Of a DNA stretch of 64,000 nt, positions 7,516-43,125 are shown piece after piece; the first letter of the stretch is position 1; each line of letters opens with the position of its first letter. A program made the position numbers and the translations under genes. The notes below the pieces were generated by a model. That model did no database searches. It saw only the letters and a program-made list of their open reading frames with translations, and was not told the origin of the DNA. The DNA is from Octadecabacter algicola (GTDB taxonomy: Bacteria > Pseudomonadota > Alphaproteobacteria > Rhodobacterales > Rhodobacteraceae): positions 248,001 through 312,000 of the forward strand of contig NZ_JAKGAR010000002.1 in the NCBI RefSeq assembly GCF_021532625.1, in the 5' to 3' direction.

Positions 7516-10500
7516 GTGTCCATAAGCGTAGCGCTAAGCCATAGAACAACATACGAATATGACCGCCCCGTAAACTTGGCGCCCCATGTGGTGCGACTTC
7601 GACCGGCGCCACACAGCCGGACACCGATCAAGAGTTACAGCCTTCGAATTGAACCCGAAGACCACTTTATTAATTGGCAGCAAGACGCCTACGCTAACTG
7701 GAGCGCGCGACTGGTCTTTCAGAAGCCAACGCAGAAGTTTTCGGTCACTGTCGATCTTGTTGCGGACATGGTTGCGATTAATCCCTTTGATTTCTTTATT
7801 GAAGAATCCTGCGCAGAAGTTCCGTTTGCCTACACGAGTGACCAACTCAAAGACCTTCGACCCTACCTGAAAAAGGTTGGCCGCGGGCAAGCGTTCAAGG
7901 ACTTCGTTGACGAAGTGCCTGCGCAGTCTGGCACGACAAATGACTGGCTTGTCGCGGTGAACAGCTTTTTGGCGAACCGCATTGATTACACCATCCGCAT
8001 GGAACCTGGTGTGCAAAGGCCGTCGGTGACGATCCGTAAGGCGCTTGGATCGTGTCGTGACAGTGCATGGTTGATGGTCGCATTGCTGCGCGAGCTGGGT
8101 TACGCAGCGCGGTTCGTGTCGGGCTACCTCATTCAATTGACGGCAGACCAGAAACCGATCGAGGGGCCCGCTGGCCCTGAGGATGATTTCACCGATCTTC
8201 ATGCATGGTGCGAAGTTTATCTTCCCGGTGCGGGCTGGATCGGTATGGACCCAACGTCTGGGCTGTTTGCTGGTGAGGGGCATATCCCATTGGCCGCAAC
8301 GCCTGAGCCGACCTCAGCTGCTGCGATCACGGGTGCACATGAATTTGCCGAGGTCTCGTTTAGTTTTGATATGTCCGTGAAACGGATAGATGAACCGCCG
8401 CGCGTGACGCGTCCTCTGAGTCCCGAACAATGGGCCGAGATCGACCGCGCTGGGCAGGCGATTGATAAGAAACTCGAAGCGCAAGATATGCGGCTCACGA
8501 TGGGAGGCGAGCCGACGTTCGTTTCCGCAATCGATCGTGATGGCGAAGAATGGTCCACTGCCGCAGTCGGCCCGACCAAACGAACCTATGCTGATCGACT
8601 TGTGCGCCGTCTTCGGGAACGGTTTGCGCCTCACGGGGTTTTGCATCACGGGCAGGGCAAGTGGTACCCCGGTGAACCGCTGCCGCGCTGGGCCTATTCG
8701 TTGATTTGGCGCGGTGATGGGCTGCCTCTTTGGTCTAACGCTGACCTTTTGGCGCAAGAGAACACAGGCACCGCAACTTATGAAACCGCCGAGGAATTTT
8801 CGGAAAAACTGTTGGATGCCCTTGAACTGGGGGATGAAGCCGTCGCGCATCCGGTCTACGAGGATCCGCTTCATTTTATGGGTAAAGAAGCGATGTTGCC
8901 CGACAACGTGTCGGTTGAAGATAGCCAGTTGGAAGACCCTCAAGAACGCGCGCGTATGGTGCGTATGCTGAACAACGGTCTTTCCAATCCGGTCAGCTAT
9001 GTCATTCCAATCCAGTTGGCCCAAGCCAAAGCCAGCGCACGCAGGCGGTTCCGCTGGGCGTCAGATGTTTGGGGAACGCGCCGCGATAAGTTGTTCTTGA
9101 TGCCGGGCGACAGCCCGGCTGGCTACCGTTTGCCGCTGAACTCGCTCGATAAATCCGAAGAGTTTAAGCAGTATTTCCGCGATACCATGTTGCGACGTAA
9201 ACGTGGTTTACCCGCGCGACGTGCGGTTCGTCGGGGGGATGAACCCGAAGGCGGCGCTGATGATAATCACGTCCTAAACACCCCTGTTTTTGGGACCGGT
9301 TACGGTCAACCGACGTCGGTAAATCCTACGCGACAGGTCCGCCAACAACGCGGCGATGCGGCGCCTGGTCCTGCACAGAATTTTGGCGAAGATGTTTGGA
9401 TGCGCGACGTCGAAACCTCGGATGATTGGCTCATGGGAGAGCATAGTTTCTGGGTCGAGGGCATGCCTGTGCGCACGGCGCTAGCGGTTGAACCGCGCGA
9501 CGGTATTTTGCATGTCTTCATGCCGCCAACGGGGTCGTCTGATGAATATCTCGATCTTGTTGAAGCCGTAGAAGAGACCGCCGCGTCTATGGATTTGCCC
9601 GTTCGCATCGAAGGGTATGAACCGCCGAATGACGGCAACATCAATGTCATTCGCGTGACCCCTGATCCGGGTGTCATCGAGGTTAACATTCACCCCGCTA
9701 AAAGCTGGCAGTCGTTGAAGGAAATCAACGAAGCCCTCTATGAGGAAGCGCGCCAATGTGGGTTGGATAGTTTCACGTTCATGGTGGACGGACGGCTTAC
9801 GGGATCGGGCGGCGGCAACCATATCGTTGTTGGTGGTGCGACACCTGCGGACAGCCCGTTCTTGCGGCGGCCTGATCTTATTGGATCGCTGATCCGATAT
9901 TGGCAGCGGCATCCGTCCCTGTCCTACCTATTTTCTGGCACCTTCATTGGCCCGACCAGCCAAGCCCCGCGTTTCGACGAAGGCTTGCCTGACAAGGTTT
10001 ATGAGATGGAAATCGCGCTGAATGAGTTGACCCGAATTCAAAAGAGCGGCCAGTCTTTTCCCTGGTTATCGGATCGCATTTTGCGACACCTTTTGACTGA
10101 TTTGACGGGTAATACACATCGCGCCGAAATCTGTATCGACAAAATGTATTCGCCAGACAGTCCGACGGGGCGTCTCGGACTTGTGGAATTTCGTGGGTTT
10201 GAAATGCCACCGCATTGGCAGATGAGCATGGCGCAATCGCTCGTGATGCGCGGGTTGCTAGCGTGGTTTTGGGATACGCCGTATGAAGAGCCGCTCGAAC
10301 ATTGGGGCCAGACGCTGCACGATAAGTTCCTGTTGCCGCATCATTGCCGCGCTGATTTCAATTCAGTGCTGGAAGACCTAAGCGGAGCGCACGGGTTTGC
10401 ATTCAGACCAGATTGGTATGACGCGCAATATGAGATGCGGTTCGGCGAAGTCGGACACACCCATGTTGAGGGGCTAAAGCTGACCCTGCGCAACGGCATC

Positions 10501-10977
10501 GAACCTTGGTTGGTCCTTGGCGAAGAGGCTACGGGCGGGGGTACGTCACGATATGTGGACAGCTCCCTTGAACGCGTGGAGCTGAAGATCGAAGGCGATC
10601 TTGGTGAGCGGTTTGTCATCACGTGCAATCAAGTTGAGGTCCCGCTCGAGAAGGTCGGCCCGGATACATACGTCGCTGGCATTCGGTTCCGCAGTTGGCA
10701 GCCTTGGTCGTCGCTTCATCCGACGATTCCGGCACATGCGCCGCTTGTTTTCGACGTTTATGATCGGATTTCAGGGCGGTCTGTTGGTGGGCTAAAGTAT
10801 TTGGTGGCCCATGAAGGTGGCCGCGCCCATGAGACGCGCCCCGTAAACGAGCTGGAGGCCGAAGGACGCAGACGTGTGCGTTTTCAAGAGGGACAACATA
10901 CGCCGTTCCGGTTCGACCCGATCAAACCACGGGCCAACCAATGGAACGCTGCGACGCTTGATTTGCGGTTTATCTAG
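7516..10977 (+). CDS. Transglutaminase-like / DUF2126 putative amidoligase fusion
   Basis: A 1153-residue cytoplasmic protein. Residues 1-100 are the bacterial transglutaminase-like N-terminal domain (SHRTTYEYDRPV). A transglutaminase core follows, with the Cys180-His229-Asp245 triad visible in GSCRDSAW, DLHAWCEV and GMDPTSG. From about residue 330 to the end is DUF2126, recognised by LTMGGEPTFVS, VDGRLTGSGGGNH and FEMPPHWQMS and described as a putative COOH-NH2 amidoligase. It starts with GTG. Divergent from the ATP-grasp/alpha-E/Anbu run, it completes the classic set: two ligase folds, a transglutaminase-fold protease or transferase and a proteasome-like peptidase. The pathway product is unknown. 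Confidence 0.93.
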   Translation: MSISVALSHRTTYEYDRPVNLAPHVVRLRPAPHSRTPIKSYSLRIEPEDHFINWQQDAYANWSARLVFQKPTQKFSVTVDLVADMVAINPFDFFIEESCAEVPFAYTSDQLKDLRPYLKKVGRGQAFKDFVDEVPAQSGTTNDWLVAVNSFLANRIDYTIRMEPGVQRPSVTIRKALGSCRDSAWLMVALLRELGYAARFVSGYLIQLTADQKPIEGPAGPEDDFTDLHAWCEVYLPGAGWIGMDPTSGLFAGEGHIPLAATPEPTSAAAITGAHEFAEVSFSFDMSVKRIDEPPRVTRPLSPEQWAEIDRAGQAIDKKLEAQDMRLTMGGEPTFVSAIDRDGEEWSTAAVGPTKRTYADRLVRRLRERFAPHGVLHHGQGKWYPGEPLPRWAYSLIWRGDGLPLWSNADLLAQENTGTATYETAEEFSEKLLDALELGDEAVAHPVYEDPLHFMGKEAMLPDNVSVEDSQLEDPQERARMVRMLNNGLSNPVSYVIPIQLAQAKASARRRFRWASDVWGTRRDKLFLMPGDSPAGYRLPLNSLDKSEEFKQYFRDTMLRRKRGLPARRAVRRGDEPEGGADDNHVLNTPVFGTGYGQPTSVNPTRQVRQQRGDAAPGPAQNFGEDVWMRDVETSDDWLMGEHSFWVEGMPVRTALAVEPRDGILHVFMPPTGSSDEYLDLVEAVEETAASMDLPVRIEGYEPPNDGNINVIRVTPDPGVIEVNIHPAKSWQSLKEINEALYEEARQCGLDSFTFMVDGRLTGSGGGNHIVVGGATPADSPFLRRPDLIGSLIRYWQRHPSLSYLFSGTFIGPTSQAPRFDEGLPDKVYEMEIALNELTRIQKSGQSFPWLSDRILRHLLTDLTGNTHRAEICIDKMYSPDSPTGRLGLVEFRGFEMPPHWQMSMAQSLVMRGLLAWFWDTPYEEPLEHWGQTLHDKFLLPHHCRADFNSVLEDLSGAHGFAFRPDWYDAQYEMRFGEVGHTHVEGLKLTLRNGIEPWLVLGEEATGGGTSRYVDSSLERVELKIEGDLGERFVITCNQVEVPLEKVGPDTYVAGIRFRSWQPWSSLHPTIPAHAPLVFDVYDRISGRSVGGLKYLVAHEGGRAHETRPVNELEAEGRRRVRFQEGQHTPFRFDPIKPRANQWNAATLDLRFI

Positions 10978-26273: not shown

Positions 26274-28106
26274 TTAGGCAACACGGATCGGTTTTTGTGG
26301 CACGATATCTTCGATGTAGGCTTGCTCTTGAACGTGACGGACATTCGACAGTGAAATGCTCATCATGGATTCAAGTGTGAAATAAGCGCGGATAATTCGG
26401 AAGATCAGATATTCGGGCAAACAAAGAATTCCACGCGGCATACCGTTTAGAAGTGTCGCAAAGATCGCCATGATCGATGGTGCGCCCAAGAAAACGGCGA
26501 GGATCGCTTGCCAGATTAAGGGGCTTTGGGGGTTGAAGGCAGTTACATACTCTAGGATGCCGAAGAATATTAGAGGGACCAACATCGCGCGACGCGCAGA
26601 GTTTACCAGCATGTAAGGCAGCATCAGTTTGCCACGGATCGACACCCAGTCCGAATAGATCAAATCACGGCAGCGCGATGACACATGATAGATTGAGCGA
26701 AACCAGCGCATGCGTTGTTCGCGCATATGGGCGTATTCTGTTGGGACTTCGGAAACATAGCGGATGCGCGGATCGACAACGGATTTGAAGCCCAGCTCAC
26801 CGATACGCAATGAAATGTCGGTGTCTTCGCCGTTCATGCCTTCGACAAAACCGCCCAAGTAACGGGGGTGTTCTGCGCGGTAGACTACGAACATTCCGGG
26901 AATGCCGACGACCCCTTTGATGGCCCCCATTGCCACGGAATAGAACCCGTGTTTCACCATCACTTCGAGCAAACGTGCGCGGTCAAACAGGCCACCACCC
27001 GGAGGGATAGGTACGCCGCCAACAACGCCGACCTCTGGATCAGTGAAGTACGGGATCGCGCGGCTAAGGTTGTCTTCGCCGAGAAGTGTGTCGGCGTCGA
27101 CCCGTACCAGCAACTCGGTTTCGCAGGCGTCCATTCCGTCATTCAAAGCGTGTGATTTTCCTGGAGTCGGTACATCGATCACTCGGCCCGTTGCAGCTGT
27201 GCACGCGTTGATGGCATTTGTGGCAAGCTCAGCCGTGTTGTCGGTGGAATTGTTATTCATGATCAATATTCGCACGTCACCGCCATAGTGTTTGGCGGCT
27301 TTGTCCATCGCTTTGATGGTCCGTTCGATGATGTAGGATTCATTGTGGGCGGGTACGATGATACTGACCGATGGTTTTACAGGCGCTGGGCGCATCAACA
27401 AAACATCCATCACGGCAAGAATGTAGAGTTGGCCGAAAAACACCGGCAAAAACAAGAACACGCCAGGGCCAATACCCCCGAGCAACGCCCAGTTGCGCAT
27501 GAAGTCAACAAGAGGCCAGTCGGCTCTGGAGGAGGTAATTGCTACAGATGATGCGACACCGAACGTAATGAAAAGACGAACCAATGCACTTCGTTCGTTT
27601 GTAGGGCGGTGTTCAACACGGATGCGTGCGGGCATATTGCCCCATTCCAACAATTTTACGGAATAGACTGCGAAGCCCAGCAATCCACTGACGATCTGAG
27701 AAAAGCTAAGACCATACCCATAACCCATGGTTAGGTAGAATCCTGCGTTTAGCAGATCTAGGATTGCGCAGCCGAACATGAAGGTAAGGATAAGATCCGC
27801 CCCAAACAGCAGCCGCATCTTCGGCGTGCCACCTGCGAATGCGGAAAATGAGATATAGAAAGACAGCACAAATATACGCATCGCGACGACGTGGTTGCCC
27901 TCATAAGGGGAGAACGTCCAATCGTGATTTGGGAAAATCGCGGCAACTGATGGCATGTTCACAAGGAACAATTGTGCGGTAGCGACGACTACAAATAGCA
28001 AGAGTGATGCCGGCGCGCGCCATTGTGGGACCGCTCCGGCAAAACGCTTGGGCGCGCTGTCCACGGATACAAAGTTAATCGCTTTGGTTTCGGTTGTCTT
28101 GGTCAT
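26274..28106 (-). CDS. Processive GT2 polysaccharide synthase (cellulose-synthase-like)
   Basis: A 610-residue inner-membrane glycosyltransferase with about six N-terminal membrane segments (residues 35-235), a GT2 catalytic domain (about 245-480) and further C-terminal segments. Catalytic features visible are SIIVPAHNE, MNNNSTDNT, the DxD in VRVDADTLL, the acceptor-site ED in MNGEDTDISL and the Q-x-x-R-W motif (EQRMRWFRS). The last marks processive synthases such as BcsA and HasA. No PilZ domain is present, so direct c-di-GMP control as in BcsA is unlikely. Its start overlaps the BcsB-like gene stop by ATGA. It should polymerise and translocate a beta-linked polymer; the sugar is unknown, and the SqdB-like neighbour suggests a sulfonated or related hexose. 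Confidence 0.88.
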   Translation of the reverse strand: MTKTTETKAINFVSVDSAPKRFAGAVPQWRAPASLLLFVVVATAQLFLVNMPSVAAIFPNHDWTFSPYEGNHVVAMRIFVLSFYISFSAFAGGTPKMRLLFGADLILTFMFGCAILDLLNAGFYLTMGYGYGLSFSQIVSGLLGFAVYSVKLLEWGNMPARIRVEHRPTNERSALVRLFITFGVASSVAITSSRADWPLVDFMRNWALLGGIGPGVFLFLPVFFGQLYILAVMDVLLMRPAPVKPSVSIIVPAHNESYIIERTIKAMDKAAKHYGGDVRILIMNNNSTDNTAELATNAINACTAATGRVIDVPTPGKSHALNDGMDACETELLVRVDADTLLGEDNLSRAIPYFTDPEVGVVGGVPIPPGGGLFDRARLLEVMVKHGFYSVAMGAIKGVVGIPGMFVVYRAEHPRYLGGFVEGMNGEDTDISLRIGELGFKSVVDPRIRYVSEVPTEYAHMREQRMRWFRSIYHVSSRCRDLIYSDWVSIRGKLMLPYMLVNSARRAMLVPLIFFGILEYVTAFNPQSPLIWQAILAVFLGAPSIMAIFATLLNGMPRGILCLPEYLIFRIIRAYFTLESMMSISLSNVRHVQEQAYIEDIVPQKPIRVA

Positions 28107-29671
28107 TGGCGCGGTGCCATCGACAGTCGGTCCTCTACAACGGGCGAAATAGCCAAAACAATGGCGCTACTTGCAACGTCATTTTCGCCCGCGGTTACAT
28201 CGGCTGATCGGGTCACGATGGCGCGTTTGTTGGCATCTAATCCGACAAACAATGCGGTCGAATGCAACGTACCGGCAACCGATACGATGTCGGCGCGACG
28301 AACCGCCGCCAAAGCCGCAGGGCCATCTACAACCTGTAACTCGGTGTCCGTCGTGATTAGATCAAGCGTCAAATCCAGCATGCGTTGTGCTTCGACAAGT
28401 GACATGTTGTCAGGGAAACTGATTGTGACAGGCTGGCGTCGATTGAGCATGCTTGCCGCTGCACGCAGATCATCCTCGAAGGTTTCACCGCCCTGTAAGA
28501 GACGTGTGCTAGAACGCAGTTCTGCAAACAGGTCTGGGCCGTTGTTGCAAACGCCGACGGCTTCATAATTTGACATAGCCGTGATTTCGATCAGGTTGCT
28601 GTCGAGCACCTCAACGTCGGTCAGATCCAAACGCCCAGAATGGATACCACCGTTGGTGGCAACTTCTGTGGCCTCCAGGATCGAACCGTTGTGGGTTACA
28701 ATAACAGTCCATTTTGCATCGCCCGGTAGCGGGCCAAGCATGACTTCATAGTCAAATTCGCCGGGGGCCGACAAATGCGCGCGCGGACCGACACGGTACC
28801 AATGGCGCCATGTTGTCGTTTCCTTGAAAGTGCGGTGACCAGCATTCGCGCCGGCGGCTGCAATGTACTCGGGCCATGCGGGAATGGCTTCTTGAACCGC
28901 AAACGCGGGCGCACCAGACGCAACGAGCTCCCGAAGGGCTTTACCGGATAGCGTTTCACTGTCGGGCGCGTCCACAAACCGGACCTGATAACCGCGTGTT
29001 GTTAATTCTGCTGCGGCCAACCAACGTTCTTGGCGTTTTTCTTCGGGCAACCATTCAGGCCAGCCAAGCAATACCACATTGCCCCATGCTGCGACCTGAT
29101 CGCGCGGTGTGAGCGCGGTGTCATCAATATTCAGCAGAACGCGGGTATCTTGTTCGATCTCAACGACGTTGGACCAGTCGCTATCCGGCGAACAGGATCC
29201 TGTATCATCAGCGACAAGCAATGCGTACCGCACACCAAGCGTATCGGACGCAAGATCGTCCGCAGTCAGTTCGATTTCCGTATTGATGTCATACTGACCG
29301 GGCCGCAAAAGAACTTCGCCGCGGATTTCGTTGCCGACCAGAACGCGCAAAAGGCTGTGCTGGCCGTCAGCGATCTGTGCAGTCGCACTCAGCGCAAGTG
29401 ATCCGGTACGCAATGAAACGTCTTGTGGCATCTGAAACCGAGCAGTTTGGGCGCGGTTCGAAGTCGTCAACAAAAGCACGCCTTCGGGACGCGCGCGAAA
29501 CAGACTGATGTAGGATGAAAAGTCTTCAGCGGCTGGTGTAATTTCGAATGTCAGCTTGGTATCGCGACCTGCAAAAAGTTGCGGAACGCGTTCAACAAGA
29601 CCGAGCTTTGAAATACCCAGTGCGACTCCGGCCAGTAAGAAAACCAGAATTGATAAAATTAACATTCTCAT
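28103..29671 (-). CDS. BcsB-like periplasmic partner of the GT2 synthase
   Basis: About 522 residues with one N-terminal membrane segment (MLILSILVFLLAGVALGIS) and a large periplasmic part. It resembles BcsB: jelly-roll-like sequence with LLRVLVGNEIRGEVLLRPG, then the DDTGSCSPDSDWSNVVEIEQDTRVLLN stretch, the place where BcsB proteins have a Cys-Asp-Pro..Trp..Ser pattern. Further on are AWGNVVLLGWPEW and FPDNMSLVEAQRMLDL, resembling alternating flavodoxin-like domains. BcsB's C-terminal membrane anchor is absent, so assignment rests on pattern and on tight coupling to the GT2 gene. The start seven codons inside the longest frame puts the basic residue before the membrane segment. Confidence 0.6.
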   Translation of the reverse strand: MRMLILSILVFLLAGVALGISKLGLVERVPQLFAGRDTKLTFEITPAAEDFSSYISLFRARPEGVLLLTTSNRAQTARFQMPQDVSLRTGSLALSATAQIADGQHSLLRVLVGNEIRGEVLLRPGQYDINTEIELTADDLASDTLGVRYALLVADDTGSCSPDSDWSNVVEIEQDTRVLLNIDDTALTPRDQVAAWGNVVLLGWPEWLPEEKRQERWLAAAELTTRGYQVRFVDAPDSETLSGKALRELVASGAPAFAVQEAIPAWPEYIAAAGANAGHRTFKETTTWRHWYRVGPRAHLSAPGEFDYEVMLGPLPGDAKWTVIVTHNGSILEATEVATNGGIHSGRLDLTDVEVLDSNLIEITAMSNYEAVGVCNNGPDLFAELRSSTRLLQGGETFEDDLRAAASMLNRRQPVTISFPDNMSLVEAQRMLDLTLDLITTDTELQVVDGPAALAAVRRADIVSVAGTLHSTALFVGLDANKRAIVTRSADVTAGENDVASSAIVLAISPVVEDRLSMAPRQ

Positions 29672-29761
29672 GATCAACCCCACGTATCTCAAGATTTACT
29701 AATACTGGAACGGATGCGGGCACCCTGACGAACAGGGAACCCGCAGGTCTTTCGAAGTGGC

Positions 29762-30970
29762 TTACTCAGCTGCCATTTTGTTTAGAACACCGGGCTTCTG
29801 ATTGTCGGTCCATGTGGACACGCACGGGATCATTTCCATGCGGCAACGGTCAGCGTACTTTTGGGACACTTCCATTGTTTCGGTAAGCAAGCCTTTTGCC
29901 AACGTCATTGGCTCAAGCCCAAGATCGATGAAGCCTTTGTTTGAGACGCGCAGATCGTTTTCAGCGGCCTCGTTGCGCGGGTTATCGACCATTGCAACCT
30001 TTGCACCGGATGCGTCTGCAACCATCTGCGCCAAGTCACGCACGCGGTGGGTTTCAGTCATCTGGTTGAGGATCTTAACTTTGTCACCACGAGCAGGCGG
30101 GTTCGCGATTGCCAACGCCAAGCACTGGACTGTGTCTTGGATGTGGATGAATGCGCGTGTCTGGCCACCAGTGCCGTGCACTGTCAGCGGGTGACCAACA
30201 GCCGCTTGCATCAAGAAGCGGTTCAACACTGTGCCGTAATCACCATCATAGTCGAAGCGGTTCAACAGCGCGTCGTGACGACGTGTTTCTTCTGTTTGGG
30301 TGCCCCAAACGATGCCCTGATGCAAATCAGTGATGCGCATGTTGTCGTTCTTGGCATAGAATTGGAACATCAGCTGATCCATGGACTTCGTCATGTGATA
30401 AACGCTGCCCGGGTTTGTTGGGTACAGGATGTCGCGCTGGAAAATCGTGCGGTCATCGCCTGGTACGTATACTTTCAGGTAGCCTTCTGGGATTTCCAGG
30501 CCGTCGCCATCATAGCCGTAAACGCCCATCGTACCGAGGTGAACAACGTGGATGTCTTCGCGCAATTCGGCAATTGCCGTCAGCAAGTTGTGCGTAGCGC
30601 CGATGTTGTTGTTGACCGTGTACAACTTGCCGTTTTCGTTTTTCATTGAATATGGAGCGGCACGCTGCTCAGCGAATTGGATCACTGTGTCTGGCTTGAT
30701 CTCTTCGATCAGGTTGCGGAGAGCGGCGTAGTCTTGTGCCACATCAAAGTTGTGAAAACCAATCGGGCTGCCACCGGTTTCTTCCCATGCGGCGAGACGC
30801 TCTTCCATGGATGCGATTGGTGTCAGGCTGTCTGCGCCCAGTTCTTCATCGATAGCTCGACGGGACAGGTTGTCCACAATGTGCACATCGTGACCCTGTG
30901 CGCTGAGATAAAGGGATGTTGGCCATCCGCAGAAGCCGTCGCCACCAAGTACGATAATTTTCTTAGACAT
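29762..30970 (-). CDS. SqdB-like NAD-dependent sugar-nucleotide enzyme (UDP-sulfoquinovose synthase family)
   Basis: Extended short-chain dehydrogenase of 402 residues. The NAD site is GGDGFCGWPTSLYLS at the N-terminus. The catalytic Thr147 (HLGTMGVYG), Tyr191 and Lys195 (YHMTK) fit SqdB. Very SqdB-like are FAEQRAAPYSM, NRFDYDGDYGTVLNRFLMQAAVGHPLTVHGTGGQTRAFIHIQDTVQC and the WGTQTEET segment. SqdB makes UDP-sulfoquinovose from UDP-glucose and sulfite. Differences from plant and cyanobacterial SqdB around residues 150-180 leave room for another product. No SqdA/C/D lipid genes accompany it. It is the first gene of the operon with the BcsB-like and GT2 genes, which points to polymer rather than lipid synthesis. 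Confidence 0.8.
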   Translation of the reverse strand: MSKKIIVLGGDGFCGWPTSLYLSAQGHDVHIVDNLSRRAIDEELGADSLTPIASMEERLAAWEETGGSPIGFHNFDVAQDYAALRNLIEEIKPDTVIQFAEQRAAPYSMKNENGKLYTVNNNIGATHNLLTAIAELREDIHVVHLGTMGVYGYDGDGLEIPEGYLKVYVPGDDRTIFQRDILYPTNPGSVYHMTKSMDQLMFQFYAKNDNMRITDLHQGIVWGTQTEETRRHDALLNRFDYDGDYGTVLNRFLMQAAVGHPLTVHGTGGQTRAFIHIQDTVQCLALAIANPPARGDKVKILNQMTETHRVRDLAQMVADASGAKVAMVDNPRNEAAENDLRVSNKGFIDLGLEPMTLAKGLLTETMEVSQKYADRCRMEMIPCVSTWTDNQKPGVLNKMAAE

Positions 30971-31317
30971 TGTGTATATCCTTACGTTTCCATGTTCGTT
31001 AACGGATCATTAATTTGAAAAGTGGCGGCTTTGTGCACCAGCTTGGGCAAACCAGCGGTAATGTTGTGGTTTTGGAAACATTTGGCGGGTTCCCTTGCGT
31101 CAAGAAGGACCCTTCTGCGGGGAGAAAAACGCCACAGTTCCCCACAAATCGTTGGTTGCGGGCGATTTCAGCGGTTTTTGGGCGCACCACTTGCATGTGC
31201 GGGAATCGCCGATTTGGAAACAACCGACGTAGTTTCGCAAGAATTTAATCAAAGTTCCGCCTTATTGAAGCGGCATCATCAGAAGGAACAAGCACACTAT
31301 AATATTGAGATCCGATC
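30971..31317. other. Divergent intergenic region, SqdB-like / beta-barrel genes
   Basis: A 347-base gap holding the CtrA box. The rest shows no credible gene; short open frames here lack ribosome sites and family features. It should contain promoters for both directions. Confidence 0.6.
30999..31013. promoter_or_regulatory. CtrA box (TTAA-N7-TTAA)
   Basis: TTAACGGATCATTAA is a perfect match to the alphaproteobacterial CtrA consensus TTAA-N7-TTAA. It sits 29 bases upstream of the SqdB-like start and about 305 bases upstream of the divergent beta-barrel gene. It implies cell-cycle, motility or c-di-GMP-linked control of the polysaccharide operon, known for CtrA in this group. Confidence 0.7.
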
Positions 31318-32274
31318 ATGACGAAAATTTGGGACCGCGCCCGCGCACTGGCAACGAAGAGTGTGGCAGCACCGCTTTGGCTCGCGTCCCTTGTGATCGT
31401 CCCAGAGACCGTCGCAGCCGATCTAGCGGACATTCAATGGTCTTCTACGTTGAGCTTTGATCGGGAAATGCAAATGACGTGGGACGAAGGCACGTTAAAC
31501 ACCGAGTTTGCAGCGGCCCCGTCTTTTCTGACAACCGCGAAAACGTCAACGTCGCTGCCCAATGGTGCACATCTTTCTTTTGGTGCGGACGTTCTGTTAA
31601 CGGGAAACGGTGTTGCGACAACCAATGGTGAAACCGAACTAGAAGGTGGCCTGTCATTCAATTACCGGCAGAAATTCGGGACGAACAATGACTGGCAGTA
31701 TCAGGTGCGCGGTGAATCCGATATTCTGATGTCCAACGAAGAATTGGTTTTTCAGCGCCAGCGCCTGGGGTTCCACCTTAAATATCGACTTAGCCCCGAA
31801 CACTCGACCGCCGGATTTGTCCGTTTTGGGTATCGGGATCAGAACGACGATCGTCTTTTAGGATACGACCAGACGGAATTTCTGGGGTCGCTGACCCACA
31901 CGTGGAGGCCAGAGGACAGCGATTTGACGTTCGCAGGCACCGTCTACACCGAAACACGGCGCGCCGATTATGCGCAGTACAGTTATGATGAAGTTGGCTT
32001 AAGGTTCATGGCCCGCACACCATTGTCTGAAACAAACGAAATGACCGCGCGCCTTTCAATCTATCAGCGGGAATTTCAGGATGGGTATTCTGCAACCAAC
32101 CCGACCCATCGCGATGATACACGAATAAAGCTATCGGTTGAGGTCGAACATACTTTCTCAGATCAATTATCTGGCAGCGCCTATGCCGGTTGGGACGGCA
32201 ATGGATCGACCATTTCCGGCTTGTCCTACGATGGCCCAATTGCGGGCGTCGCGATCACGTATCAATGGCAATGA
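31318..32274 (+). CDS. Outer-membrane beta-barrel protein
   Basis: 318 residues. The N-terminus is Arg/Lys-bearing with a hydrophobic stretch (SVAAPLWLASLVIVPETVAA) that serves as signal peptide. The remainder is alternating, Tyr/Gln/Thr-rich beta sequence (HLKYRLSPEHSTAGFVRFGYRD, LTFAGTVYTETRR) with about twelve to fourteen strands and an ending VAITYQWQ close to a barrel-assembly signal. No family name is claimed. Divergent from the SqdB-like/BcsB-like/GT2 operon, it is a candidate outer-membrane export pore, as BcsC's barrel is for cellulose, but it has no TPR domain. Confidence 0.65.
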   Translation: MTKIWDRARALATKSVAAPLWLASLVIVPETVAADLADIQWSSTLSFDREMQMTWDEGTLNTEFAAAPSFLTTAKTSTSLPNGAHLSFGADVLLTGNGVATTNGETELEGGLSFNYRQKFGTNNDWQYQVRGESDILMSNEELVFQRQRLGFHLKYRLSPEHSTAGFVRFGYRDQNDDRLLGYDQTEFLGSLTHTWRPEDSDLTFAGTVYTETRRADYAQYSYDEVGLRFMARTPLSETNEMTARLSIYQREFQDGYSATNPTHRDDTRIKLSVEVEHTFSDQLSGSAYAGWDGNGSTISGLSYDGPIAGVAITYQWQ

Positions 32275-33470: not shown

Positions 33471-35204
33471 CTAAATGAGGATTAAAAGGTCATCATCAAA
33501 GACCGCGATGTCTGTATTTTCGAACGTGGCTTGGACATCACCAGATACAAACTCGACGTTGGCACCGTTCTGAGTGAAAGCTGCCTGCGCTGTAGCTAAA
33601 TCAGCAAACTGGAAATCAGTGACATCAATGCTGTCCCAAGCTTCAAGATTTAGAACGCGATCATTGCCTGCATGGGTTTCTTGGAAAATGAAAAGGTCTG
33701 ATCCATGCCCACCTGCAATTACGTCATTTCCAGCGCCGCCATCAATTACGTCACCTTCCACGTTTTCACGCATCCAGTCTTCCAAAGAGTCTGCTGTTTT
33801 GTCACGGAATTCACTGGATTGGGCAAACCCACGGACAACTTCGGTCCGTGATGCACCGTTTTCTAGGTCGCTGACCCATCGGGCCAGGCCTGCATCATCA
33901 GCACTCCGATCCAGAACGTTTTGGTAGAGTAACTCAACGAAGTCGGCATTGCTTAGATTAGCGCCATAAGTGTTCTTAAATTCAGTCGAGTTCACAAAAC
34001 CAGCAGCCTCATCCAAATACTCGGTACCAGATCCGAGGCGCTCTGTTCGGTTAAACATTCCGTTCACATCTGGTGCACGATCTAGCGTGGCCTGATAAAG
34101 GCGGAACACGTCATCGGCCCAAATTTGTTGTGTGTTGCCTTGCGCGAATTGGGCTGCATCTGTCGCAGTGTTGGTTTTGAATTCTTTGCTATTGGAAAAG
34201 CCCAAGACGACCTGCGCTCGTGACACGCCGGTTTCTAGGTCACCAACCCATCGGGCCAAGCCAGCATCATCAGCATCACGACCCAATACGTTTTGATAAA
34301 GGAGGTTAACAAAGCCAGCGTCACCGAGTGAGCCATAAGTATTTTGAAATTCTAACGATCCAACAAACCCATTGGCTGCTTCCAACAGCGTTAGTCCGTC
34401 CAATTCTAAACGTGTGGTCCAGTTTTGATGGCCGTTTGCGTCCGGCTCACGGCCAAGCGTCGCTTGATATAATCTGTAAACAGAGGCGGCCGTTTCAGCG
34501 AAAAAGGCAACGGGTAGGTCGTCAGAGACAAGTAAGTCATCGTCGTCACCGCCATATAGAAAATCTATGCCTTCACCGCCGGTAATAGTGTCATTACCCG
34601 CGCCGCCGAAAAGGATATCGTTATCCTCATCCCCCGTGATGGTGTCCCCGCCATTGTCGCCAAAGAGTATATCTGCGCCGCCATCACCGCTAATGACGTC
34701 CGCACCGTCGCCACCTTGAATAATATCGTCCCCGCCTAAGCCTTCAAAAGTGTCGTCGCCTGAGAGGGAGAACAACGTTGTTACAGTAATAGAGTCATCT
34801 TCGTCGCTACCTGAAAACGACCAATCCAAATCCGAAAATTGTTCGATAAGGTATTCCAGATTTAGCTGTGCAGATACGGTGTTATCGATCTGGCTTTGGA
34901 TTGTATAAAGCCCGCCCGCAGAGAAGGTCGGTAAGTCGATTTCAATCAAGTCCACAAATTGAGGAGACCCTTGCCCGATAATGATCTGGGTAAAGTCAAT
35001 TTCGTTGATGTATCCTCGTAATAGTTGACTACCTGTTGAGTTTACAAACAGACCACTACCACCCAGCGACGCGGCTTTCAGCCCATTCCCGCCAATCGAA
35101 ATACTTGATCCAACCCCTCTTGCCACTCCTGAGGCTAGTGTCTCAATGAGGTCAAAGGTATGTTCACTCAAAGAGCCTGATACAAAAACGGAATTAGTCG
35201 ACAT
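33471..35204 (-). CDS. RTX / DUF4214 exoprotein
   Basis: About 577 residues, very acidic, no signal peptide: the profile of a type I secreted protein. Residues 155-240 are calcium-binding nonapeptide repeats (GGDGADVISGDGGAD, GGAGNDTITGGEG). Two to three DUF4214 units follow (VYRLYQATLGREPDANG, LLYQNVLGRDADDAGLARWV and similar). A second short RTX block (GGAGNDVIAGGHGSDLF) precedes a C-terminal secretion region ending in FDDDLLILI. DUF4214 occurs in surface and EPS-linked proteins, including glycosyltransferase-associated ones. The start MSTNSVF lacks a good ribosome site. No type I secretion genes are in the window. Confidence 0.88.
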   Translation of the reverse strand: MSTNSVFVSGSLSEHTFDLIETLASGVARGVGSSISIGGNGLKAASLGGSGLFVNSTGSQLLRGYINEIDFTQIIIGQGSPQFVDLIEIDLPTFSAGGLYTIQSQIDNTVSAQLNLEYLIEQFSDLDWSFSGSDEDDSITVTTLFSLSGDDTFEGLGGDDIIQGGDGADVISGDGGADILFGDNGGDTITGDEDNDILFGGAGNDTITGGEGIDFLYGGDDDDLLVSDDLPVAFFAETAASVYRLYQATLGREPDANGHQNWTTRLELDGLTLLEAANGFVGSLEFQNTYGSLGDAGFVNLLYQNVLGRDADDAGLARWVGDLETGVSRAQVVLGFSNSKEFKTNTATDAAQFAQGNTQQIWADDVFRLYQATLDRAPDVNGMFNRTERLGSGTEYLDEAAGFVNSTEFKNTYGANLSNADFVELLYQNVLDRSADDAGLARWVSDLENGASRTEVVRGFAQSSEFRDKTADSLEDWMRENVEGDVIDGGAGNDVIAGGHGSDLFIFQETHAGNDRVLNLEAWDSIDVTDFQFADLATAQAAFTQNGANVEFVSGDVQATFENTDIAVFDDDLLILI

Positions 35205-35427
35205 AAAGTAAACTTTCGGTAGCGCTGTTTCGTTCGTTGCCAAAAGGTTTGAAACCGGCGGCACATGGGCTTTGAGACGTCATACTCAGTTGATAAGATA
35301 ACTATATTGATGGCTGCAATAGCCGCTTGACCCTATTCGAGCTTCTCGTTCAGGTTGATGAACTGGGTGATCAGGTTTCGGTCTCCGGTATCTACAACTT
35401 CGGCTGAGCAGAGACGTAAAAAGGCGT

Positions 35428-37164
35428 TTACCCGAAGGACATCGCGAGAGCTAAGACAGGAAGCACAGCCAAGAGCATTGAGAGCCCCATGTCGTCTGCG
35501 ACGTCTAGCATCGGCTCTTCATCGTCCTCAATCGCATCATCTGTTGAAGACGCTGTTTCATGCGCGGAGGCCGAGGCGAATTCGGCCAGCGGTTCAAACG
35601 CTGTAAAGTCGTCTTCGTTCGATTGCTCCCCGATAAACGGCGCCAATTGATCTGTGGGAACTACGCCCTTTACGACGACTTGCAGGATTTCGGCGGGATC
35701 GAGGCTGACGTTCAACGTTCCATCGTCGTAAACGAGGGTGTGGTCTACTGTTTCTAGCTCTGCGTGGGTCTTATTGTATCCAATGTTTCCGCCCTCTTCG
35801 ACGCCAAGAATGGTCAGTTCCATTGTGTCGAAATCAACAAGAAGGCTGCTCAGGTCCAAATTGGTTGACGTCACGCCCTCGTGGTTTGTGCCCGTGACAT
35901 ACAGCAAGAGTTCGCCTTCACCCGCAAAACCGTGGACGTTAATATCGCTCAATTCCGCTTCTGTGTGCCGGTCGATATCCGGATGGAAATCCAATAAGGT
36001 CTTTCCTGGCAGGTTTTCCGCCATCATCTGAAACATCGCTCCGGGTGCATTTGTTTCAGCGTACTCCCATTTGCTGCTAAGAGAATTGTCAGTCAAGTGA
36101 GTCAGTGGCCATACTTGGGCATGATCAACGCCAACTTTGATGAATTCCTCCATGATGTTTAACATCTCTTCGGCTTGATGCAGGCCGTAGTCTTCGTAGC
36201 GTTCCAGCTGGTCGGTCACGCCTTTCATGTTCCATTCGGTTACATGGACTTGCATGTCAGGGTATTCTGCCATCCACGTCTCTTCGAGTACGCCAAGGCT
36301 CGACTCACGCGACCATTCGTTGGCGTCACCAAGGCTGTAAACATGAGAAATGATGCCATCTACATCGTCGATCGTGCCGTCGTCTTCGAATTGTTTGATA
36401 AGAATTTTGTTATGTACATAGCTCCAGTTGACCTGCCCGCTATTGTACAACGCATCAGCATCGAGCGAGAGACCGTAGTCGGAATTCAAGGCATCGATAG
36501 CTTGTTCCGGTGTGACGTCGTCATAGTCATCATTCAATCGAGCAGCAGCAAAATTCTGTCCCATTTGAACGGTGATTTGAATATTGCCAGCCTCAGCGTT
36601 GTCGACTGCAACCTTGTCCAATTCATCGCGAATTACGTCGGTCATCTCGGATGCGAGGCGACCATATTCGACTGTATTCATATAGCCGGAATGCCAGTAT
36701 TCGTTCCCGATCTCGAAAGCTCGGATATCAGGTGACCCATATTCACCTGATGCGACATCTCGAACGAAAGTCCGGAGGTCATCTTCGCTGAAATCCGGCC
36801 ATCTGTTGCCGTCCTCATCAGTCTCTTCGGATAGGTTGAACCGAGTCGGGATGACGACCGACACAGGGTGATCATTGTCCTCGGCATACCCGAAGAAGTC
36901 AGACAACGAGATCCAGCTGTTTTCTTCGCCAGTGTTTGCGTCAATGACAGTCTCAGCATTCGGGTTATTAATATCGAAGCATTTCTCAGTCCGAGATCCA
37001 CCGGGATACCGCAGGGACGTTACACCCAGATCGTTAATGGCTGTATCGTATTGGCCGTCCCCAAATAACTCGCCACTATTGGCCAGAATATTTCCACCAA
37101 ACAGATCTACGGAAATCTCGTCTCCGACGGTCGATGCAATTTCCAAAATATTCTGGTTTTTCAT
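35428..37164 (-). CDS. Clan GH-A-like glycoside hydrolase with hydrophobic C-terminal tail
   Basis: A 578-residue, strongly acidic protein. A (beta/alpha)8 glycosidase of clan A is suggested by LRYPGGSRTEKCFD early on, the acid/base Glu in FEIGNEYWH (about residue 152) and the nucleophile Glu in VHVTEWNMKG (about 299). The arrangement resembles GH39/GH51/GH79-type enzymes. A beta domain follows to about 520, then an Asp/Glu/Ser/Thr linker and a hydrophobic tail (SMLLAVLPVLALAMSFG) at the very end. No N-terminal signal peptide is seen, so export must use another route, perhaps type I. The hydrophobic tail could be a secretion signal or anchor. Substrate unknown; it may trim an exopolysaccharide. 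Confidence 0.7.
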   Translation of the reverse strand: MKNQNILEIASTVGDEISVDLFGGNILANSGELFGDGQYDTAINDLGVTSLRYPGGSRTEKCFDINNPNAETVIDANTGEENSWISLSDFFGYAEDNDHPVSVVIPTRFNLSEETDEDGNRWPDFSEDDLRTFVRDVASGEYGSPDIRAFEIGNEYWHSGYMNTVEYGRLASEMTDVIRDELDKVAVDNAEAGNIQITVQMGQNFAAARLNDDYDDVTPEQAIDALNSDYGLSLDADALYNSGQVNWSYVHNKILIKQFEDDGTIDDVDGIISHVYSLGDANEWSRESSLGVLEETWMAEYPDMQVHVTEWNMKGVTDQLERYEDYGLHQAEEMLNIMEEFIKVGVDHAQVWPLTHLTDNSLSSKWEYAETNAPGAMFQMMAENLPGKTLLDFHPDIDRHTEAELSDINVHGFAGEGELLLYVTGTNHEGVTSTNLDLSSLLVDFDTMELTILGVEEGGNIGYNKTHAELETVDHTLVYDDGTLNVSLDPAEILQVVVKGVVPTDQLAPFIGEQSNEDDFTAFEPLAEFASASAHETASSTDDAIEDDEEPMLDVADDMGLSMLLAVLPVLALAMSFG

Positions 37165-39726: not shown

Positions 39727-42700
39727 ATGTCGTTGATAATTACAGGTGTTTTGGACGGTCCATTAAGCGGTGGGTTGCCTAAGGCGGTAGAGCTTTTCGT
39801 GACTGCCGACATCGCCGATCTCTCAAGTTATGGTTTAGGATCAGCAAATAACGGGGGTGGATCGGACGGAGAAGAGTTTACCTTTCCCGCCGTGGCGGCC
39901 GCTGCTGGGTCTTATATCTATGTGGCCTCTGAAACAGTCGGGTTTACCGAATTTATGGGGTTTGCCCCCGATTACACAGCGGGGGCACTGTCGGTGAACG
40001 GCGATGATGCGATTGAGCTGTACGCATTTGGATCGGTCAGTGATCTTTTCGGCGACATTAATGTTGATGGAAATGGCCAGCCTTGGGAATACCTAGATGG
40101 ATGGGCTGCACGAAACCCCGGGTCGACCGCCAGTCCTATTTTTGACGTGGCCGATTGGACCCTGTCGGGAGCAAACGCCTTTGATGGGCAAACGAGTAAT
40201 GCAACCGCGGCAACGCCGTTCCCAACTGGGTCCTTTGAAAATGTTGTGACGGCACCGACTTTCGTGATTAACGAAATCGACGCAGATCAGGACAGTACCG
40301 ATAGCCAAGAATTCATCGAGATCTACGATGGAGGAGTTGGTAATGCGTCACTGGATGGGCTGACACTCGTGCTCTTTAACGGGAACGGCGAAGCGAGCTA
40401 TGATACGATTTCCCTAGACGGGTTCACCACAAACGCCGATGGCTTCTTTGTTGTTGGGTCTGCCGATGTTCCCAATGTTGATCTGGTCGAGTTCACGACT
40501 AACGGGCTGCAAAACGGCGCGGACGCAGTTGCTCTTTATGAAGGGACCGCGCCGACCACTGCCACAACCGTAAACTTGGTGGACGCTATCGTTTACGGAA
40601 CCAATGACGCCGACGACGCTGAGCTTTTGGCTGCTCTCGGCCAAAGCGTTCAAGCGAATGAAAGCGCCAATGGCACGTCGACGTCAGATGCGCTGGCCCG
40701 CCAACCTGACGAAACGGGTGATTTCGTTGCTCAAGCCCCGACGCCGGGCGCCAGCAACTTTATAGAGCCACCGGCTGAAATCACACTGATCAGTGAAATT
40801 CAGGGCAGCGTCGGAACCGGCGATCTGGATGTGATCGGCGTTGATGATCGAAGCGCGCTAGAAGGTCAGATTGTGACGGTCAGCGCCATCGTCACAGCCG
40901 ATTTTCAGGATGGCCTGTTTGGCACACAGGGTGATTTGAACGGTTTTTATATTCAGGAAGAAGAAATCGACTACGATTTCAACGACCTAAGTTCTGAAGG
41001 CATCTTTATTTTCGATGGCACAGCGCCACTGGTGGACGTGAACATTGGTGATCTGGTCGAAATCACAGGCACCGTCAGTGAATTCTTTGGTCAGACCCAG
41101 CTCTCGGCGACGTCCGTGGTCGTGATGGACACAGATCAACCGATACCTCCTGCGATGGACGTCGTGTTCCCGACAGCCAACATCATGGATGATGGCAGCG
41201 GTAACTATGTTGCCAACCTCGAAGCATATGAAGGCATGTTGGTTAACGTCGCTCAGGACATGACAGTATCCGAAATGTTCAATCTTGATCGTTTTGGCCA
41301 ATACAACGTCACTGCCGACGGACGGGTAACTCAGTTTACCCAAAACAATGACCCGGACGCCGAAGGTTATGAACAACACCTACAAGACACAGCGTCCCGC
41401 ACATTGGTTTTGGATGATGGCTTGTCAGCCCAAAACCCTGACACGCTGAAAATTATCGATGGCAATGACGGTGTGCTCACCGCAGAGGACAGTTTCCGAA
41501 TGGGAGACGAGATTTCTTCGATCGAAGGCGTCGTGGGGTATTCCTTCGGGGAATTCCGCATAAATGATGCAACCGGTGTCTATGATCAAACCAACCCTCG
41601 TGATGAGACCCCAGAAGACATTGGCGGCAATTTCACAGTCGCCAGCCTGAACGTGCTCAACTATTTCACTACAATCGATGAAACCGGCGTCACCACAGAC
41701 AACGGGTCCGATCCGCGTGGTGCCGACAGCCTTGAAGAGTTCGAGCGTCAGGCCGACAAGCTGGTAAAGGCAATTGTTGCAATCGATGCGGATGTATTGG
41801 GGCTTATTGAAATCGAAAACGACTTCGCTGGCGACACTTTTGCGATTAAGGATATTGTCGAACGTGTAAACGCCGACCTTGGGTCGGAAATCTATGCCTT
41901 CGCTGATCCGAAACAGGAATTCGTCGGTGGCGACGCTATTTCCAACGGGTTGATCTACAAGGTGAACGACGTCGGCCTTAAGGGCGACATGGCTATACTC
42001 GAAACCTTCAACGGACAGAGCTTCCTTGATCCTTTGGGCGCGGGCCGAGACCTGAACCGTCCTGCGATTGCACAGACGTTTGAAGATTTGGACACAGGGC
42101 AAACACTCACCGTGTCTGTTAACCACCTCAAGTCCAAGGGGTCGCTATCAGGGCTCGCAGAAGACGAAGCGCAGGGGGACGGTCAGGGTAACAACAATGC
42201 GACCCGAACCGAAGCAGCAAGTATCCTTGCTCAGTGGCTGAACGATGATCCAACAGGTCAGGGGTCAGAAAACACGCTGATTTTGGGCGATTTGAATGCC
42301 TACGCCAAAGAAGACCCTCTTACGACTTTGTCCGACGCGGGTTTCACAGATCTTGCGGCGACAGAACTGGGCGACGACGCATATTCCTATGTGTTCGATG
42401 GTCAGATTGGCACGCTCGATTATGCATTGGCCAATGATGCGCTTGCTGAAAACCTCGCTGGGGTCACGGAATGGCATATCAATTCTGATGAGGCAGATGC
42501 GCTGGATTATAACCTCGATTTCGGACGGGACCCGACCCTTTACAGTGATGATAGCCCAGCCCGAAATTCTGATCATGATCCAGTGATCGTTAGCTTTGAT
42601 TTCGATCCCGTTTACAATCTGATTGCAGGCACAAATCGCAGGGACTTCTTGTCTGGCACTGAAGGTCGCGACCAGATCGACGGTATGAGTGGAAATGATT

Positions 42701-43125
42701 TCATATTCGCCGCTGGCGGGGATGATCTTATTTTCGGCGGCAGCGGAAACGACAAGATTTTCGCGGGCAACGGGAACGATGATATCGATGCCGGTAGCGG
42801 CAACGATTTTGTTTTCGCTGGAGACGGTGATGACGTCATCAGAGCGGGCGACGGCAAACGGGACAAATATTGGGGCGGCGATGGTGCCGACACGTTTGTA
42901 TTCTCCGCCGAATTTGCCGAGGATCGTACACGCGATAACAGTATCATATTCGACTTCAATGTGTCTGAGGACGTCATCGACTTGGGCGGTGCAGCAATCG
43001 ACGATGTCCGGGAATATTGGGGCTCGGTCCGGATCTCCCTTGAGGGAGGCAATGATCGTATTACTTTGTTGGGCGTGTCTGATTTTGACGACATCGTCTT
43101 TGCAGACGAGTTTGCGATTGCATAA
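39727..43125 (+). CDS. ExeM/NucH-type extracellular endonuclease with RTX repeats
   Basis: An 1132-residue secreted nuclease without N-terminal signal peptide. Order: lamin-tail domain (residues 2-160), a second lamin-tail domain (TFVINEIDADQDS.., 175-340), an OB-type domain (about 350-500), and an EEP nuclease domain (about 635-960) with LNVLNYF, GLIEIEND, NHLKSKGS, LGDLNAY and the terminal NSDHDPV. RTX nonapeptides follow (GGDDLIFGGSGNDKIFAGNGND, 980-1060) and a C-terminal type I signal region (FVFSAEF.. onward). It should degrade extracellular DNA for phosphate or biofilm turnover. ExeM proteins without the RTX tail are about 870 residues, so the RTX unit is an addition. TAGGAGAATGAT precedes the ATG. 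Confidence 0.93.
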   Translation: MSLIITGVLDGPLSGGLPKAVELFVTADIADLSSYGLGSANNGGGSDGEEFTFPAVAAAAGSYIYVASETVGFTEFMGFAPDYTAGALSVNGDDAIELYAFGSVSDLFGDINVDGNGQPWEYLDGWAARNPGSTASPIFDVADWTLSGANAFDGQTSNATAATPFPTGSFENVVTAPTFVINEIDADQDSTDSQEFIEIYDGGVGNASLDGLTLVLFNGNGEASYDTISLDGFTTNADGFFVVGSADVPNVDLVEFTTNGLQNGADAVALYEGTAPTTATTVNLVDAIVYGTNDADDAELLAALGQSVQANESANGTSTSDALARQPDETGDFVAQAPTPGASNFIEPPAEITLISEIQGSVGTGDLDVIGVDDRSALEGQIVTVSAIVTADFQDGLFGTQGDLNGFYIQEEEIDYDFNDLSSEGIFIFDGTAPLVDVNIGDLVEITGTVSEFFGQTQLSATSVVVMDTDQPIPPAMDVVFPTANIMDDGSGNYVANLEAYEGMLVNVAQDMTVSEMFNLDRFGQYNVTADGRVTQFTQNNDPDAEGYEQHLQDTASRTLVLDDGLSAQNPDTLKIIDGNDGVLTAEDSFRMGDEISSIEGVVGYSFGEFRINDATGVYDQTNPRDETPEDIGGNFTVASLNVLNYFTTIDETGVTTDNGSDPRGADSLEEFERQADKLVKAIVAIDADVLGLIEIENDFAGDTFAIKDIVERVNADLGSEIYAFADPKQEFVGGDAISNGLIYKVNDVGLKGDMAILETFNGQSFLDPLGAGRDLNRPAIAQTFEDLDTGQTLTVSVNHLKSKGSLSGLAEDEAQGDGQGNNNATRTEAASILAQWLNDDPTGQGSENTLILGDLNAYAKEDPLTTLSDAGFTDLAATELGDDAYSYVFDGQIGTLDYALANDALAENLAGVTEWHINSDEADALDYNLDFGRDPTLYSDDSPARNSDHDPVIVSFDFDPVYNLIAGTNRRDFLSGTEGRDQIDGMSGNDFIFAAGGDDLIFGGSGNDKIFAGNGNDDIDAGSGNDFVFAGDGDDVIRAGDGKRDKYWGGDGADTFVFSAEFAEDRTRDNSIIFDFNVSEDVIDLGGAAIDDVREYWGSVRISLEGGNDRITLLGVSDFDDIVFADEFAIA

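Follow-up and report, generated by a model that had tools for sequence, protein, structure and literature searches.

Described systems and the Octadecabacter locus

In the cellulose synthase system, BcsA-BcsB(-BcsC), a processive-type membrane glycosyltransferase of family 2 (GT2) is accompanied by the periplasmic partner BcsB and an outer-membrane barrel; BcsB alternates two beta domains with two flavodoxin-like domains and has a C-terminal membrane anchor packing on BcsA, and BcsC has a tetratricopeptide repeat (TPR) part. Sulfolipids and archaeal protein glycans are the main settings in which sulfoquinovose is known, and we know of no processive synthase for the archaeal Agl3 system. Here we analyse a stretch of 64,000 nucleotides from Octadecabacter algicola (the window; contig C8, NZ_JAKGAR010000002.1, positions 248001-312000; genome size 3.45 Mb), in which a SqdB-family gene is followed by genes for a BcsB-like protein and a GT2 synthase. 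We consider this module to be probably a dedicated exporter, of the synthase-dependent kind, for a polysaccharide that contains sulfoquinovose.

The three genes are transcribed from the minus strand in the order SqdB-family enzyme, a predicted UDP-sulfoquinovose synthase (29762-30970, 402 residues), N-terminally anchored periplasmic BcsB-like protein, a predicted co-polymerase (28103-29671, 522 residues), and GT2 membrane synthase (26274-28106, 610 residues). The ATG of the GT2 gene overlaps the TGA of the periplasmic-protein gene (ATGA, 28106-28103), and a divergent gene for a predicted outer-membrane beta-barrel, the likely export pore (31318-32274, plus strand, 318 residues), begins 347 bases past the sqdB start. 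Re-examination of the window thus recovered the four open reading frames, motifs and ATGA coupling described in an earlier sequence-only reading. Promoter and terminator scans gave signals no greater than in shuffled sequence, and a tRNA search found none. A search of GTDB genomes for relatives of the GT2 returned 129, of which the best 80 were taken as loci, and the gene set recurs there with its order and linkage.

In the scheme that we propose, the SqdB enzyme would convert UDP-glucose and sulfite to UDP-sulfoquinovose, as its homology, kept residues and tree position indicate. The GT2 would polymerise this nucleotide sugar, either by itself or in alternation with a common UDP-sugar, and thread the chain across the inner membrane, as expected from its QxxRW motif and topology. 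The BcsB-like protein would then take and guide the chain in the periplasm, a role suggested by its modelled fold, and the modelled 14-strand barrel, repeatedly adjacent to the synthase, or in certain genomes a different outer-membrane protein, would release it. From these parts we infer both the sulfoquinovose content and the beta linkage of the predicted exported chain.

Single parts of this scheme have counterparts elsewhere. PgaC/IcaA, the poly-beta-1,6-GlcNAc synthase, gives the best NCBIfam match of the module GT2 domain, but at 75 bits this is far below the cut-off of 422, and no module gene is annotated as a PgaB-type deacetylase. BgsA, the rhizobial mixed-linkage beta-glucan synthase, is likewise an alphaproteobacterial GT2 without a PilZ domain (PMC5567048), a likeness by description between unaligned GT2s, and the main text of that paper mentions neither BcsB nor BgsB. 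The sqdBDC operons of the Rhodobacter sphaeroides type encode SqdBs 61-65% identical to that of the window, but also carry SqdD (GT8) and SqdC, two genes that searches at E<=1e-10 and 1e-30 did not detect in any of the 80 module loci. Agl3 of Sulfolobus acidocaldarius is a UDP-sulfoquinovose synthase supplying a surface glycan (PMC4388408), but its sugar enters protein glycans, the sulfoquinovose glycan being described as a protein-bound hexasaccharide (PMC9549778).

The sequence-only reading had named no described synthase-dependent system of this composition, and among the matches listed in the open-access full-text literature we likewise found no paper linking SqdB with a GT2-BcsB system. 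Divergent BcsB without BcsC has been reported in alphaproteobacteria in a study whose main text contains neither sulfoquinovose nor sqd (PMC7112194), and loci of the present kind may have been entered as divergent cellulose operons in surveys based on BcsB or GT2 profiles. The nearest published hint that we met comes from metagenomes, in a study that counts UDP-sulfoquinovose synthase as one of the sugar-nucleotide enzymes of exopolysaccharide production (PMC12555021).

Recurrence of the gene set and the predicted export proteins

Using thresholds of E<=1e-30 for SqdB and E<=1e-3 for the BcsB-like profile, we found SqdB in 76 and the BcsB-like gene in 79 of the 80 loci (the best 80 of the 129 GT2 relatives), both in 75 and all three genes colinear in 74, so the three genes do keep company elsewhere, as had been anticipated; in L086 SqdB is convergent. 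Five of the loci (L033, L037, L043, L085 and L086) appear already to have been used for the BcsB-like profile, and some are near-copies (the SqdBs of L047 and L049 are identical), so that the 80 are not independent. The four loci lacking a neighbouring SqdB (L071, L073, L084 and L093) lie in genomes that each have a SqdB elsewhere, outside the fetched stretch. Most loci belong to Rhodobacteraceae in the wide sense, the others to Sphingomonadales, Rhizobiales, Alloalcanivorax, two Nocardia and two Gordonia; Shimia litoralis and Sulfitobacter marinus (L037, L055) are among the marine carriers that can be cultured. When 149 genomes of the family (our own included) were scanned for the BcsB-like protein, it was found in seven, at eight places, all eight of which cluster with SqdB.

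The GT2 matches Pfam Glyco_tranf_2_3 (E=2.2e-20) and has the DADT (DAD), NGEDTD (GED) and QRMRW motifs, with five hydropathy-predicted membrane segments before the glycosyltransferase domain, two after it and one peak within, in keeping with a processive GT2 and with the DxD, ED, Q-x-x-R-W and many membrane segments noted earlier. QxxRW is present in all 80 relatives; the conservation of MNGEDTD and IGPGVFLF is a selection effect, because these served as search patterns, from which QxxRW is exempt. Identification of the GT2 as cellulose synthase BcsA was rejected, as it scores 15.3 bits on CelA (TIGR03030; cut-off 699) and has no PilZ match.

The periplasmic protein has a single membrane segment, at the N terminus (residues 3-21), and none at the C terminus by hydropathy, an arrangement found in 8/8 BcsB-like proteins and distinct from the C-terminal anchor of BcsB. 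In an AlphaFold2 model built from eight sequences (predicted local distance difference test, pLDDT, 73.8; predicted template modelling score, pTM, 0.66), beta strands at 66-182 and 279-393 alternate with alpha/beta domains at 189-260 and about 399-510, the domain order of BcsB. A Foldseek search of the PDB with this model returned BcsB or cellulose synthase complex entries as all of its top 22 matches (E 4.5e-17 to 4.1e-12, probability 1.00), followed by a match at E 4.5e-9. The BcsB-like pattern that had been read from the sequence is therefore upheld by modelling as a BcsB-like fold. Across 75 loci the mean pairwise identity is 28% for the BcsB-like protein, 55% for GT2 and 69% for SqdB, indicating that the BcsB-like protein changes fast.

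The barrel protein matches EpsL weakly (29.9 bits, cut-off 275). Its AlphaFold2 model, from an alignment of 17 relatives, has 14 strands (pLDDT 86.1), and is closest by Foldseek to OmpG and CymA (E from 1.5e-9); at rank 30 stands 4y25, an entry titled bacterial polysaccharide outer membrane secretin. Relatives occur in 22 of the 80 loci, a count on which the profile and BLAST with two relatives agree, although 15 of the 17 profile rows come from those same 22 loci. In 14 of the 22, the barrel gene shares the strand of GT2 and lies directly after it, overlapping it by <=4 bases in six. Elsewhere it is 1.7 kb downstream (L052) or behind GT2 on the opposite strand (L084, L105), or it lies upstream, in L081, L087 and L102 on the shared strand and in L112 on the opposite one, which is the arrangement of the window. 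In a Marinicaulis metagenome-assembled genome (L069, 7983-10742) one open frame contains both GT2 (1-588) and barrel (647-916) parts, which may be a real fusion or an assembly error. A different gene, of 376-429 codons, is found upstream in L019 (same contig as L086), L020, L096 and L113, the last two versions being 47-48% identical to that of L019; from its appearance only, it may encode a porin. The barrel that the sequence-only reading had placed in the system is thus borne out as a modelled structure, divergent in the window, but it accompanies the synthase in only 22 of the 80 loci.

Likewise, the comparison with cellulose export drawn in that reading stands for the GT2, the BcsB-like fold and the barrel, but not for the closest family of the GT2, which is PgaC. 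The module further differs from the Bcs system in its dedicated SqdB and in a single 14-strand barrel without a TPR part. Because it lies outside cellulose synthase by these comparisons, we set it apart from that enzyme, while supposing that it would work like a BcsAB-type exporter.

The SqdB lineage and the proposed identity of the polymer

The window SqdB is homologous over nearly its full length to Arabidopsis SQD1 (1qrr; phmmer E=3.2e-96, residues 3-387 of 402). On the NCBIfam model NF041015 (UDPsulfquin_syn), nine other SqdB-like proteins all fall below the cut-off of 575 bits (best 452.3; 333.9 and 329.5 for the sqdBDC SqdBs of L013 and L014, 450-452 for L028 and L029). This equivalog cut-off was dropped as a test of function, since none of the SqdBs scored reached it.

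The catalytic triad of SQD1 consists of Thr145, Tyr182 and Lys186, and in Agl3 alanine at His95, Arg101, Met145, Tyr182 or Lys186 abolishes activity, changes of Glu147 or Tyr148 strongly impair UDP-glucose conversion, and T144A remains active (PMC4388408). The window SqdB keeps the triad of the short-chain dehydrogenase/reductase type, with Thr147, Met148, Tyr151, Tyr191, His192 and Lys195 all in place, the Agl3 positions having been located by motif, without an Agl3 alignment, and Arg101 left unplaced. Among 78 module SqdBs (76 from the 80 GT2 loci plus the window copy and a second copy on contig C7), YxxxK, Tyr191, His192, Lys195 and Tyr151 are retained in all, Thr147 in 77 and Met148 in 76. 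At the position of Glu148 of SQD1 the window enzyme has Val150, and valine is found there in 78/78 module SqdBs and in all seven sqdBDC SqdBs examined (L027, with no match to SqdD or SqdC, was left out of this set). The UDP-glucose and sulfite site foreseen in the sequence-only reading is therefore kept in most residues, but not at this glutamate or at the essential histidine discussed below. In L032 (4351-7231) a SqdB-like gene with glutamine likewise at the histidine position adjoins a gene for a Stf0 sulfotransferase and a second gene related to it.

In a tree of 92 SqdB rows (78 from modules; SQD1, Agl3 and the R. sphaeroides SqdB themselves left out), the seven sqdBDC SqdBs, all from one family, form one clade (support 100/100) lying among the 78 module rows, and the well-supported branches force two changes of module label. 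Rows nearer the SQD1/Agl3 type (TMGEYG; L028 and L029 among them) fall outside the module and sqdBDC grouping, and the nearest rows to the window SqdB are from Flavimaricola and other Rhodobacteraceae; the bootstrap is unsettled, some inner supports are weak, and long branches were flagged (outgroup rows, L086, L106, L076, L096). Deletion of sqdB from the sqdBDC operon of R. sphaeroides abolishes sulfolipid, as reported in PMC11346425, and because sulfolipid there needs sqdB, UDP-sulfoquinovose is the most economical product for the module enzymes too. Since YxxxK is kept and the sulfolipid SqdBs nest among those of the modules, we judge it the likeliest product of the module SqdBs.

Use of the SqdB clade extends beyond the module. 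Across the 149 genomes of the family, 20 of the places with a long match to SqdB were fetched, comprising six modules, seven sqdBDC operons and seven that were neither; one genome (G025) holds both a module and a sqdBDC SqdB, which suggests separate jobs. In three loci (L108, L109, L112) the module SqdB is the sole SqdB of its genome at E<=1e-30. Both SqdBs of our own genome sit in modules, and SqdD was not found in that whole genome by a query that detects it by BLAST in six other sqdBDC loci. A class-wide sample of 385 genomes (SqdB E<=1e-40, BcsB-like E<=1e-10) gave SqdB in 31 genomes at 32 places and the BcsB-like protein in five; the latter scan is of little use, its first pass having scored <=3 candidates per genome, and two of its five matches (G385, G418) cover just a short part of a long frame, in genomes with no SqdB listed at E<=1e-40. 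We fetched all 18 SqdB places above 60% identity outside our own genome, leaving out 12 at 38-45%. L115 has SqdB, the BcsB-like gene, GT2 and barrel and is probably the same locus as L082; L113 has SqdB and GT2; L114, described below, is another of these places; L122 and L125 have SqdD and SqdC; and 13 of the 18 have other neighbours, a few of them, by eye only, polysaccharide genes. The SqdB clade is thus put to use in several settings, of which the module is one.

Several observations weigh against a dedicated sulfoquinovose exporter. Chief among them at the level of residues, Gln98 of the window SqdB replaces the histidine of the HFxEQ stretch (His95, needed in Agl3); over the 78 module SqdBs this position is His in 72, a gap in one and Gln in five (the window, L033, L034, L035, L046), the C7 copy having His, and Gln occurs in none of the seven sqdBDC SqdBs. 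The window enzyme scores 341.7 bits on NF041015, also below the cut-off. The 149 family genomes yield 42 long matches to SqdB (E<=1e-50), just 8 of which lie in modules, and because of this proportion the clade must have uses besides the module. The gene set is itself incomplete in places: a barrel relative was not found near 58 of the 80 modules, SqdB and GT2 are directly adjacent with no detectable BcsB-like gene in L096 and L113, and L114 has SqdB, the BcsB-like gene and a barrel relative with no GT2 before the contig end. SqdB and GT2 distances correlate at 0.94 over 75 loci, as is likewise expected from shared descent. At E<=0.001 the profile of the GT2 retrieves no BcsA from the PDB, and the query-normalised whole-chain template modelling score of the periplasmic protein to BcsB is just 0.27-0.32, so that the placing of its domains is unmatched to BcsB. 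Because its sequence profile finds no PDB chain at E<=1, the link to BcsB comes from the fold comparison and one marginal Pfam match (PF03170), that of the C7 paralogue, at 21.5 bits against a cut-off of 21.

A first alternative is that the synthase uses UDP-glucose to build a plain beta-glucan or a comparable homopolymer, with SqdB serving side-chain decoration, a glycolipid or another surface use. The GT2 motifs are generic only, known GT2-BcsB pairs mostly use UDP-glucose, and five sphingomonad loci (L082, L083, L090, L097, L099; Pfam on two, BLAST on all five) carry genes of glycoside hydrolase family 10 (GH10), a family of beta-1,4 endo-hydrolases, which hints at beta-1,4 links. However, SqdB accompanies the pair in 76/80 loci spanning Alphaproteobacteria, one gammaproteobacterium and Actinomycetota, a rate approached by no other recurring neighbour family surveyed, and in our own genome both SqdBs belong to modules and no SqdD was found. 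We regard this explanation as unlikely.

Slightly less probable again is that this SqdB clade makes another C6-modified UDP-hexose, for instance the 5,6-ene or the product of a different addition, in which case the polymer would be modified without being sulfonated. It accords with the valine that replaces the glutamate of the Agl3 dehydration step, with Gln in place of the essential His in the window SqdB, and with the formation of UDP-glucose-5,6-ene by Agl3 without sulfite (PMC4388408). However, that valine is common to the seven sqdBDC SqdBs examined, which nest among the module enzymes, and the R. sphaeroides sqdB is needed for sulfolipid (PMC11346425). Chance adjacency, or decay of the module, is highly improbable and was rejected: only the missing Pfam match of the window BcsB-like protein (none at E<=0.01) speaks for it, whereas 74/80 loci keep the same order and one genome has two modules with frames open throughout.

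Beyond export of a sulfoquinovose-containing polysaccharide by the module itself, we tentatively suggest, as a possibility that we would not yet favour, that such modules form a widespread unnamed class of exporters in marine roseobacters, sphingomonads and some actinobacteria, whose polymer would be mainly or wholly sulfoquinovose, a C-S analogue of cellulose-type chains, and that the polymer enzyme gave rise to the sulfolipid SqdB of Rhodobacteraceae. Were common marine bacteria to make a sulfonated exopolysaccharide, it would add a so far unrecognised source of organic sulfur and bring a new polyanion to biofilms and surfaces, and the compactness of the three-gene unit makes the claim directly testable.

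A second module and neighbouring genes

The second module of the O. algicola genome lies on contig C7 at about 1347-1352 kb, beside a hybrid histidine kinase. By local alignment its proteins are 74% (SqdB), 67% (GT2) and about 34% (BcsB-like) identical to those of the window, and a recent duplication was rejected, the two SqdBs falling in different parts of the tree. The adjoining genes (L002, G000 C7, 9754-13592) encode this kinase, a 164-residue protein with a weak molybdopterin-domain match and a LuxR-type regulator. Relatives of the kinase are found near 33 of the 80 modules, of the LuxR-type regulator near 32 and of the ~165-residue protein near 31; together these may perhaps be a regulatory set that replaces PilZ control. 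Relatives of sulfate permease occur in six of the 80 loci, including all four from actinobacteria and, with weaker matches, L068 and L034, which fits a need for sulfur; SulP proteins transport other anions too.

Further along the window, the minus-strand gene at 35428-37164 encodes a 578-residue protein of glycosidase-like look (GNE and TEWN stretches), for which Pfam (E<=0.01) and the PDB (E<=0.1) gave no match and BLAST (E<=1e-4) no relative among the 80 module loci; it stands beside a DUF4214/RTX protein (33471-35264, minus strand). The large plus-strand product of 39727-43125 combines lamin-tail, endonuclease/phosphatase and RTX parts and is perhaps a secreted nuclease. At the other end of the window are a DUF2126 amidoligase/transglutaminase gene (7516-10977, plus strand) and an Alpha-E gene (4975-5982, minus strand), two genes that often occur as a pair.

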